DNA from: an uncultured Pelagibacteraceae bacterium
GTDB taxonomy: Bacteria; Pseudomonadota; Alphaproteobacteria; Pelagibacterales; Pelagibacteraceae
Assembly (NCBI GenBank): GCA_902516425.1
Contig: CABXYE010000002.1
Span: 62,001 to 126,000 of the forward strand
Reading direction: 5' to 3'
Length of the DNA stretch: 64,000 nt
Of the stretch, positions 7,015 to 10,059 are shown piece after piece. Below the pieces are notes generated by a model that saw only the letters and a program-made list of their open reading frames with translations, ran no database searches and was not told the origin of the DNA. A program made the position numbers and the translations under genes. Within the stretch, counting starts at the first letter, position 1. Each line of letters begins with the position of its first letter.

Positions 7015-8289
7015 TTAGAATTGTTCAGACTCTGTTGAGCCTTCCATTGCTGTAGTTGAACTTTTACCACTACTTATTGTATTAGAAACTGCATCAAAAT
7101 AAGATGTACCAACTTCTCTTTGATGTTTTACACTAGTGTAACCATCTTTTTCGCGAGCAAATTCTTGTTCTTGAATTTTTGAATAAGCAGACATACCTTC
7201 TTTTTTGTATTTTTCGGCAAGCTCGAAAATTGCAATATTCTGTGTATGAAATCCAGCAAGGGTAATAAATTGAAATTTATAACCCATAGCACTTATCTCT
7301 TTTTGAAAAGAAGCTATTTCAGTATCTGATAAATGCTTTTTCCAGTTAAAGGATGGTGAGCAATTGTAAGCTAAAAGTTTTCCAGGAAATTTTTCATGGA
7401 TTGCATCAGCGAATTTTTTTGCTTCTTCTAGATTTGGTGTTGCAGTTTCGCACCAAATTAAATCTGAATAAGGTGCATATGCCAAACCTCTAGATATAGC
7501 CTGATCAATTCCAGCTTTTACGTAGTAAAAACCCTCTGGTGATCTTTCACCAGTTAAGAAAGGTCTATCGTTATCGTCATGATCATTTGTAATTAATTTT
7601 GCTGCATTCGCATCTGTTCTGGCTAAAATTATTAAAGGTACATCAGCGATATCAGCCGCTAACCTAGCAGCTTTTAAGTTTTTAATCATAGTGCCTGTTG
7701 GAACTAATACTTTACCACCCATATGCCCACATTTTTTTTCACTTGCTAGTTGATCTTCAAAATGAACACCGGCAGCGCCTGCTTTAATAAATTTTTTAGC
7801 AAGCTCGAATACGTTTAAAGGTCCACCAAATCCAGCCTCACCGTCAGCTATAATTGGTAGCATATAATCAATTCTTTTTTCTTTTTTCATATCACCATCT
7901 TTTAGTTCCATATGTTGTATCTGATCTGCTCTAATCAGTGCATTATTCATAGATTCTACTAATTTTGGAGCACTATCGTAGGGATATAAAGATTGATCAG
8001 GATACATTTCTCCAGCACTATTTGCATCAGCAGCTACTTGCCAACCACTTAAGTATATTGCCTTTAGACCTGCTTTAGCATGTTGGACTGCATGGTTACC
8101 TGACAAAGACCCAAGAGTATTTACATAATTTTCAGTATTTAGCAATTTCCATAGTTTTGTGGATTGTTGTTTACAAAGTGAATATTCAATTTTAATAGAA
8201 CCTCTAAGTCTCTCAACTTCTTCTGGAGTATAATCTCTTTTAATCCCTGCAAATCTTTTTAAGTCGTATGAGATGTTTTCAGCACTCAT
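7015..8289 (-). CDS. aceA: Isocitrate lyase
   Basis: A 424-aa enzyme that cleaves isocitrate to glyoxylate and succinate, the first step of the glyoxylate bypass. The catalytic loop KKCGHMGGK is present near residue 190, as are the Mg-binding region (ADGEAGFGG near 145), LARTDANA and the C-terminal substrate segment NCSPSFNW. The length is normal for the bacterial family. It lies 63 bp downstream of a 53-aa gene on the same strand. Opposite is an ScfR/RamB-type regulator, with TTTACAAA boxes in the divergent region, so acetate/fatty-acid responsive control is likely. No glycine riboswitch was seen in its leader. Confidence 0.96.
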
Positions 8290-8352
8290 TATCGTTTCCT
8301 TTGGTTTTAAAAGCTATTATTGAAAAATGAAATTTAGTAGAAATTATAAGAT

Positions 8353-8514
8353 TTAGTTTGAGTCTCTAGGTGTCTCAATTAAATCGTTCATTCCACTAGA
8401 ACCCCAGTCACAATGATCATCTCTCATGTAAATACCTCTGCTGTTGTGTCTAGCTAGATCTTCATGTTTGATGATTTGAGCTTCGTTTTCAGTGTTTTTT
8501 AATTTTTCGTCCAT
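8353..8514 (-). CDS. 53-aa conserved-looking protein upstream of aceA
   Basis: The ATG at 8512-8514 is preferred over an in-frame start at 8550, because the region between overlaps the regulatory boxes and codes for low-complexity FVNFVNYK. The product is soluble and very charged: MDEKLKNTENEAQIIKHEDLARH, then NSRGIYMRDDHCDWGSSGMND. The HCDWGSSG segment, with one Cys and clustered Asp/His, looks like a conserved short motif rather than random sequence. It is the first gene after the TTTACAAA operators on the aceA side, so it should be co-transcribed with aceA. The function is unknown; a regulator or accessory peptide of the glyoxylate route is only a guess. Confidence 0.6.
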   Translation of the reverse strand: MDEKLKNTENEAQIIKHEDLARHNSRGIYMRDDHCDWGSSGMNDLIETPRDSN

Positions 8515-8527
8515 GTAAATCTTATAA

Positions 8528-8617
8528 TTTACAAAATTTACAAAATCCACTGAAAAGTAAAAAAGTCTTGTAAATCAAAGAAAAATTTTGTAAAAATAAA
8601 TTTACAAAATTTACAAA
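8528..8617. promoter_or_regulatory. Repeated TTTACAAA operator region between aceA unit and regulator
   Basis: The 111-bp divergent spacer carries TTTACAAAATTTACAAA twice, at 8528-8544 and 8601-8617. Each copy is a direct repeat of TTTACAAA with a 9-bp period. Reverse-orientation boxes occur between them (TTTTGTAAA at 8586-8594 and CTTGTAAAT at 8568-8576). This resembles the TTTGCAAA-type sites bound by RamB/ScfR-family regulators at isocitrate lyase promoters. The right copy ends 8 bp before the regulator ATG, consistent with autoregulation. Confidence 0.7.
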
Positions 8618-8625
8618 TAGAAAAT

Positions 8626-10059
8626 ATGAGTCAATTAGATTTAAAAATTGGTCCAAAAATCAAGGCTTTTAGACGACAATTAGGTCTTCAAGCCAATAAA
8701 TTAGCTGAGGAATTAAATATTTCACCTAGTTATTTAAACTTAATAGAGGGTGGAAAAAGAAAAATAGATGGAGATTTACTTTTAAAAGTTTGTGAAAAAC
8801 TGAATATTGAGCTTTCTCAATTAACCTCAAAAACTGATATTAACTTAGAAAATACTTTGTCAGAAATTCTTGATGATAAACTCTTTGAAGATTTAGATAT
8901 TTTGGGTCCAGAAGTTAAAGATCTTGTCGGCACAAATCCAAAAATTGGTAGAGCAATTGTAAGACTGGGTGATATCTTAAAAAAGAAAGATCATGAAATG
9001 ATCAATAAAATTGAGACAATTTCTGGTAAAATCGTTGATAATAGAAAAAATTCATTTCCAGGCGAAGTTATTTCAGATTTTTTACAAGAGCATAAAAATT
9101 ATTTTCCAAAATTAGAAGATTTTGCAAACAAAGTTTTTGAAAAAGTTCAAAAAAATAACCGAACAAGATATATATCTCTATGTGATTATTTAAAATCAGA
9201 ATATGATATAACTGTAAAAGATGTTATACCTGAAGAAAAAAAACCTTTTTCTAAAATCTACCGAAAAAATAAAAAAGAACTATTATTAAGTGATTATAGT
9301 TCTTTAGAAACTAAAAAACTTCATGCTGCAGCCCAAATTGCTCAAGAAGGTTCTGATAAAGTAATTGAGGAATATTTAAGTAAATTTAAGTTTCCTTCAG
9401 ACGAATCTAAAAAATTAACTAAAGTTGCATTATTGAATTATTGTGGAGCAGCAATACTGATGCCTTATAAATTATTTCACACAGAATGTAAAAAACTAAA
9501 ATATGATTTAGAGTTATTACAGAATACCTTTGCAACATCTTTTGAACAGGTAGCTCACAGAGTAACTTGTTTACAAGATCCAAAATTACCAGGAATACCA
9601 TTTCATTTTTTAAGAGTGGATATGGCTGGAAATATTTCTAAAAGATTTTCATTATCTGGAATAGAAATCCCAAGATATGGTGGCGCTTGTCCACGTTGGA
9701 ATGTCTACTCAGCTTTGACGAGACCTGGCGTTATTCAAGCTGCAGTAAGTAAAATGTCTAATGGTGAAAAGTATGTATGTATTGCTAGAACTGTTGAAAA
9801 AGGAATTGGAAGATTTGGACAATCAAAAAGCATTTTATCTATTGGATTGGGATGCGAAGCAAAATATGCTAAGGAGTTCATTTACTCTGAAAATTTAAAC
9901 ATTAACGATAAATCTACAGAAATACCAATAGGTGTGTCATGTAGGACATGTGATAGATTAGACTGTTCTCAAAGAGCTTTTCCTCCATTACACAAAAAAT
10001 TTGATGTAGATATTAATTCTAGAGGTGTTTCAGTATATGTTGGAGACAAAAATTCTTAA
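8626..10059 (+). CDS. XRE-family short-chain fatty acyl regulator (ScfR/RamB type)
   Basis: A 477-aa regulator. Residues 10-65 form a helix-turn-helix (FRRQLGLQANKLAEELNISPSYLNLIEGG). The middle has the ImmA/IrrE-like region without a HExxH zinc motif (HAAAQIAQEG), so no protease activity is expected. The C-terminus is DUF2083-like with a Cys cluster, GVSCRTCDRLDCSQRAFPPLH, typical of acyl-CoA-sensing ScfR/RamB/PrpR proteins. Such regulators control glyoxylate and propionate genes. Its position, divergent from the aceA unit with repeated TTTACAAA boxes between, strongly suggests that it regulates aceA and itself. Confidence 0.88.
   Translation: MSQLDLKIGPKIKAFRRQLGLQANKLAEELNISPSYLNLIEGGKRKIDGDLLLKVCEKLNIELSQLTSKTDINLENTLSEILDDKLFEDLDILGPEVKDLVGTNPKIGRAIVRLGDILKKKDHEMINKIETISGKIVDNRKNSFPGEVISDFLQEHKNYFPKLEDFANKVFEKVQKNNRTRYISLCDYLKSEYDITVKDVIPEEKKPFSKIYRKNKKELLLSDYSSLETKKLHAAAQIAQEGSDKVIEEYLSKFKFPSDESKKLTKVALLNYCGAAILMPYKLFHTECKKLKYDLELLQNTFATSFEQVAHRVTCLQDPKLPGIPFHFLRVDMAGNISKRFSLSGIEIPRYGGACPRWNVYSALTRPGVIQAAVSKMSNGEKYVCIARTVEKGIGRFGQSKSILSIGLGCEAKYAKEFIYSENLNINDKSTEIPIGVSCRTCDRLDCSQRAFPPLHKKFDVDINSRGVSVYVGDKNS

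Follow-up and report, generated by a model that had tools for sequence, protein, structure and literature searches.

A conserved microprotein gene between aceA and a ScfR-type regulator gene in SAR11 bacteria encodes a candidate partner of isocitrate lyase

In the window analyzed here, a 64,000-nucleotide stretch of DNA, a 53-residue open reading frame (ORF) lies between aceA, the gene of isocitrate lyase (ICL), and a divergently transcribed regulator gene. The pattern of codon change among relatives marks the frame as a real gene. In the leading reading, to which we give a probability of roughly 0.4, the locus is a divergent control module in which the small protein is co-produced with isocitrate lyase and adjusts the enzyme by binding to it. 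The earlier note had suggested, among other roles, that the protein tunes isocitrate lyase flux, and the data fit this.

The aceA gene (7015–8289, reverse strand) matches NF011645 with 729 bits against a cut-off of 562; the microprotein gene (8353–8514, reverse strand) precedes it by 63 nt. As the earlier note had proposed, the microprotein gene is the first gene on the aceA side, and its 53-residue product carries the motif DDHCDWGSSG. The ORF starts with the ATG at 8514; an in-frame GTG at 8550 is also present. A divergent interval of 111 bp (8515–8625) separates it from the regulator gene (8626–10059, forward strand), whose product contains HTH_3, M78-like, and ScfR C-terminal domains and a C-x2-C-x4-C motif.

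Selection on the frame acts strongly at the amino-acid level. Among 97 distinct 53-codon coding sequences, one of which (GAT for ATG) comes from the loci with wrongly extrapolated starts, L025 and L027–L030, pN/pS is 0.207 overall, 0.022 in the core (residues 27–42, GIYMRDDHCDWGSSGM), 0.217 in the N-terminal part, and 0.363 in the C-terminal part. The core also shows slightly less synonymous change (pS 0.318 versus 0.46–0.47), and the other two frames of the same strand are closed. The microprotein is found by tblastn in 110 of 110 loci examined first. Thirty of these were fetched with the microprotein itself and 80 with the regulator alone; all of the latter, the best 80 of 445 candidates and hence close relatives (91–99% in the regulator), carry it. 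In each of fifteen more distant loci (L111–L125; four from genus g1 and eleven from five others, g3, g6, g8, g10, and g12), it lies between scfR and aceA. In g3, g6, g8, and g12, the protein has 42–64 residues and the core reads [RKN][DE]DDQDWGxxG, indicating that the cysteine is not universal. The residues invariant after M1 in a 19-row alignment (A4) are D33, D36, W37, G38, and G41. The frame is not broken in relatives, an outcome on which the earlier note had made its proposal depend: none of 65 matches contains an internal stop. A longer-reaching search gives one stop in 10 of 67 matches, all in genus g3, and the six g3 stops that were opened are the ends of shorter ORFs. For N, I, Y, F, H, and D, the microprotein gene uses a C-ending codon in 12 of 20 cases, compared with 25 of 108 in aceA and 22 of 126 in scfR. 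For N, I, Y, and F the count is 8 of 10, and the highest fraction among 56 long ORFs of the window is 0.31. This bias may reflect high expression, although it comes from 20 codons and the D and H codons mostly end in T.

The gene follows aceA across the family. Our survey covers 197 SAR11 genomes of 14 genera, many of them incomplete, so that single absences carry little weight. The microprotein described above (type A) occurs in 67 genomes and seven genera, aceA in 80 genomes, and scfR in 74. Restricting the count to the 77 genomes with a completeness of 90% or more gives 48, 50, and 49. All 67 type A genomes contain aceA. Both aceA and scfR are present in 73 genomes, 65 of which have type A and the other eight a short ORF of a second type; one or other small ORF is thus found in 73 of 73. 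Seven genomes have aceA and no scfR match. In three of them (G168, G170, and G082) a contig end is near the gene, and G168 still has type A. G034 (78% complete) keeps type A and aceA, with a tRNA-Gly gene upstream. The remaining three, G002, G050, and G108 (86, 75, and 64% complete), lack both small ORFs, their aceA genes stand in three distinct contexts, and no change at otherwise invariant positions is common to their isocitrate lyases. G188 gives a partial scfR match, and no aceA was found in it. At the order level, alignment A1 matches 164 of 297 genomes (98 of the 150 good ones). A class-level search of 385 genomes with alignment A2 gives four SAR11 genomes and one 13-residue match (E 0.024). 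A tRNA-Gly(gcc) gene lies just upstream of a scfR-less aceA in two g3 genomes (L249:428–502 and L248:2564–2638), once with and once without the microprotein, and the site may be a recombination spot.

The linkage to aceA, the retention of the microprotein in G034, and an overlap of 8 nt between the small-ORF stop and the aceA start favor isocitrate lyase as the partner. Both g12 loci inspected (type A) and five of five g5 loci (second type) show the overlap, which suggests translational coupling. Binding to the enzyme is also supported by the strong amino-acid selection and by the location of the gene beside aceA, from which no terminator-like site separates it. AlphaFold2 predicts the single chain with a pLDDT of 59.6 and a pTM of 0.15 from the 19-row alignment. 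The microprotein may be disordered or its fold not resolved by the model, and the low pLDDT may reflect the shallowness of that alignment; the unconfident fold is in keeping with a peptide that acquires its structure on a partner. Other observations speak against the enzyme as partner. The enzyme can do without the microprotein, as G002, G050, and G108 keep aceA alone and the loss tracks scfR; these three enzymes share no change that would go with the loss; and the microprotein has no sequence similarity to ICL (no alignment at E up to 100). AcnSP of Synechocystis, a 44-residue protein, is described as changing the kinetics of a TCA-cycle enzyme (PMC7336809), and CP12 and PirC are further short proteins described as adjusting central carbon enzymes, the role proposed here. 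Unlike the SAR11 protein, AcnSP is reported to resemble the N terminus of its target (PMC7336809).

The product could instead act on a target outside the locus while sharing the operon. It might, for example, regulate isocitrate dehydrogenase or aconitase, or serve as an assembly factor or protease adaptor. Its lack of useful similarity to ICL or ScfR would fit such a role, as would the searches for known families: none is named for it in Pfam or NCBIfam (E 0.1) or in PADLOC (E 1). The closest results are single-member matches of a 15-row alignment to Pfam and PHROGs (best E 0.036 and 0.096, respectively) and a solved structure at E 0.59. A search of phage records with P0001 gives no match, and no match was obtained in plasmid records with a blended query, which makes that test weaker. 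No such protein is named in the titles and abstract openings of open-licence PubMed Central papers among the matches listed, and the microprotein is apparently undescribed. However, the tight linkage to aceA and the absence of the gene where aceA stands elsewhere make a partner within the locus likelier, and we regard an outside target as doubtful.

Within the locus, the regulator is the other possible partner. The microprotein would then bind ScfR or its CoA lid as an anti- or co-regulator and provide feedback on the shared promoter region. A small ORF accompanies every aceA–scfR pair in the survey, its gene adjoins the operator-like boxes described below, and the joint absence of microprotein and scfR in the three genomes G002, G050, and G108 favors the regulator. 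On the other hand, G034 keeps the microprotein with no scfR match, and the aceA overlap in two genera points to the enzyme. Among non-SAR11 regulator loci (27 of 30 fetched), aceA lies divergently beside the regulator in 18. Searching all 27 with both microprotein models gives no match at E 0.1, indicating that ScfR regulators do not generally need such a protein. Two of the 18 pairs (L178 and L179) have an unrelated 82-residue ORF in the small-ORF position. We consider the regulator a rather unlikely target, though the chief alternative to the enzyme. The scfR–aceA module is already known, and the microproteins seem to be a SAR11 addition to it.

The second small-ORF type has 39–79 residues and a core of [DN]DxC, and occupies the same place in five g5 genomes and in one genome each of g2, g13, and g14. 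Both types occur in genus g9 (two genomes) in the order scfR, type A, second type, aceA (L156:202–366 and 369–539; L157:210–374 and 376–546; reverse strand numbering). The ancestor may have had both small ORFs, with one or other lost in different lineages. A common origin of the two types is unproven (hhalign E 0.036, 0.005, and 0.15); searched against a small local set, the type A model picks up L151, a locus with the second type, at E 8e-4. Within the second type, the g5/g9 and g2/g13/g14 groups are weakly joined (E 0.011); a stronger joining value is circular, as the rows of alignment A5 are inside A3. The A3 model is built from eight of the ten loci that it finds, and its matches arise partly by construction. 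In 250 genomes of the class, the second type gives four weak matches besides G009 (E 0.01–0.04), one in a SAR11 genome and three with internal stops. The isocitrate lyase (L234) of G014, the g14 genome with a second-type ORF, groups within the g1 clade of a tree (10 rows, support 99/90, with less support at the inner forks), and this locus may have moved between genera. Tentatively, the small proteins can be seen as a SAR11-specific microprotein family dedicated to the regulation of ICL, in which two short proteins (DDxxDWGxxG and [DN]DxC) would interchange at one place and be co-produced with the enzyme under the control of a regulator sensing Fe-S and acyl-CoA status.

By its domains, the regulator belongs to the ScfR/IsaR (PrpR) family, in agreement with the earlier note. 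It matches PF09856 (E 1.2e-58), HTH_3 (E 5.1e-11), and Peptidase_M78 (E 2e-9), all above curated cut-offs, and aligns with the PrpR structure 6cz6 at E 8.9e-63. The RamB equivalog NF038139 gives 360.6 bits against a curated cut-off of 700; we therefore call the protein ScfR/IsaR-type, not RamB. In the alignment with 6cz6, the C-x2-C-x4-C motif and a fourth cysteine of the GAF-like domain, the [4Fe-4S] ligands described for PrpR/IsaR (PMC6765138; 6cyj, 6cyy, and 6cz6), align with the regulator. The aligned cysteine pair is 84 residues apart in the regulator chain, the same spacing as Cys363/Cys447 (PMC6765138). The solved PrpR chains cover residues 66–467 of the SAR11 regulator, with the HTH outside. 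In contrast to the regulator studied here, PrpR is described as controlling methylcitrate genes (PMC6765138). RamB of Paracoccus denitrificans is likewise reported as a ScfR-family protein encoded divergently from glyoxylate-cycle genes with paired near-identical boxes upstream, but its operon begins with malate synthase and its boxes are 18 bp apart, compared with 1 bp in SAR11; the parts of that report consulted name no microprotein for the operon (PMC10370305). In some Pelagibacter strains, ScfR carries an additional HTH in tandem at its N terminus, ahead of similar doublets, as at L122:142–1833 (reverse strand; two HTH_3 stretches in 563 residues) and, read by eye, at L006:2–1393 (reverse strand).

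The earlier note had also described duplicated boxes flanking the divergent starts with reverse boxes between them, and this arrangement is borne out in the aligned intergenic regions of SAR11 relatives. The 17-bp doublet TTTACAAAATTTACAAA, that is, TTTACAAA-A-TTTACAAA, occurs exactly at 8528–8544 and 8601–8617 (forward strand), 13 bp upstream of the microprotein ATG and 8 bp upstream of the scfR ATG, respectively. On the reverse strand, an exact half-site TTTGTAAA with a conserved TTGTAAA core lies at 8587–8594 and a TTGTAAA half-site at 8568–8574. The alignment contains 89 distinct 111-bp intervals out of 124 measured, which come from 124 of 125 loci (L019, at a contig end, has no scfR). Wrongly extrapolated starts shorten or lengthen some of the intervals from distant genera, and those of 371–379 nt belong to scfR variants with an extra N-terminal HTH. 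Box 1 has zero, one, or two mismatches in 40, 28, and 21 of the 89 intervals, and box 2 has zero, one, two, or eight in 56, 27, 5, and 1. Mean column identity is 0.962 in the direct boxes, 0.938 in the reverse boxes, and 0.885 elsewhere, a modest gap because the adjoining A/T runs are also conserved. Identity approaches 1.0 in the TTTAC and TTGTAAA columns (0.99–1.00 in columns 53–59, the half-site at 8568–8574). The boxes are conserved in Pelagibacter; their conservation and position suggest that they are operators. By eye, both doublets are seen in g9, the scfR-side one is imperfect in g5, and the half-sites are fewer or differently placed in g2, g13, and g14. In the window, the doublet with up to two mismatches has four matches (two exact) against 0.56 expected, and the 8-mer TTTACAAA by itself shows no enrichment (22 observed versus 17.8 expected). 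The exact copies in the genome of origin (884 kb, 71% complete) are these two only. A wider regulon is unsupported: with up to two mismatches, this genome contains 16 doublet matches compared with 12 for the reversed control, and the 14 beyond the exact pair all have two mismatches.

The locus appears to respond to iron. In iron-limited Ca. P. ubique, aceA (SAR11_1240) is reported as up 1.58-fold (P 0.091) and the transcription regulator SAR11_1242 as up 1.60-fold (P 0.054) (PMC2864753, Table 1), a joint rise of about 1.6-fold with weak P values. In iron-limited water, SAR11 isocitrate lyase expression is also described as exceeding that in iron-fertilised water (cited in PMC6618146), and SAR11_1242 is described as raised in light (PMC3090418). 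By the gene numbering alone, the microprotein is probably SAR11_1241, a gene not found in the main text of PMC2864753 or in the open-licence papers searched. Another regulator, for example of the Fur or Irr type, might bind the boxes instead of ScfR. The iron response is consistent with this, and a relaxed Fur-box variant search reported motifs, possibly different boxes, upstream of SAR11_1242, the Ca. P. ubique regulator gene beside aceA (PMC3090418). However, the restriction of the exact doublets to this locus is unlike the sites of a global regulator, and duplicated boxes are described as common among ScfR-type sites (PMC10370305), making binding by such a regulator unlikely.

A -10-like TATAAG (8521–8526, reverse strand), read from the sequence and conserved, lies 6 nt before the microprotein ATG; it is not listed by a consensus promoter scan. 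In g1, TATAAG or TATAAA stands 6 nt before the microprotein ATG and no Shine–Dalgarno sequence is seen, suggesting that the transcript is leaderless and that box 1 occupies its promoter spacer. A GGAG/AGGA-like site is seen by eye ahead of the small ORF in g5 and g9. The earlier note had called the gene a leader, and in the attenuation sense this name does not hold. Control of aceA by translation of the frame through attenuation or stalling, and not by its product, is highly improbable: the frame is short and precedes aceA, but the 63-nt spacer (8290–8352, reverse strand) has no terminator-like site and folds worse than shuffles (z +1.6), two longer stretches fold ordinarily (z −0.9 each), the region has no Rfam match above threshold (one sub-threshold CRISPR-repeat row, 8774–8800, lies inside scfR), and the protein-level conservation is internal with a variable C terminus.

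In the preferred reading, with isocitrate lyase as the partner, the regulator would sense acyl-CoA status through a [4Fe-4S]-dependent pocket, bind the TTTACAA doublets at both divergent starts, and control its own gene and the microprotein–aceA operon. By analogy with PrpR, iron would enter through the [4Fe-4S] cluster. The microprotein, short and perhaps disordered, would be produced together with isocitrate lyase and bind it through the DDxxDWGxxG core, adjusting its activity or stability, and the isocitrate branch point would thereby be fine-tuned after transcription.

SAR11 cells have few regulators. The conserved microprotein between aceA and the regulator gene provides a concrete target for the study of glyoxylate-branch control in SAR11. 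If the preferred reading is true, the most abundant heterotrophs of the ocean would have post-translational control of the glyoxylate branch, and the microprotein is a candidate dedicated controller of carbon use in these bacteria.
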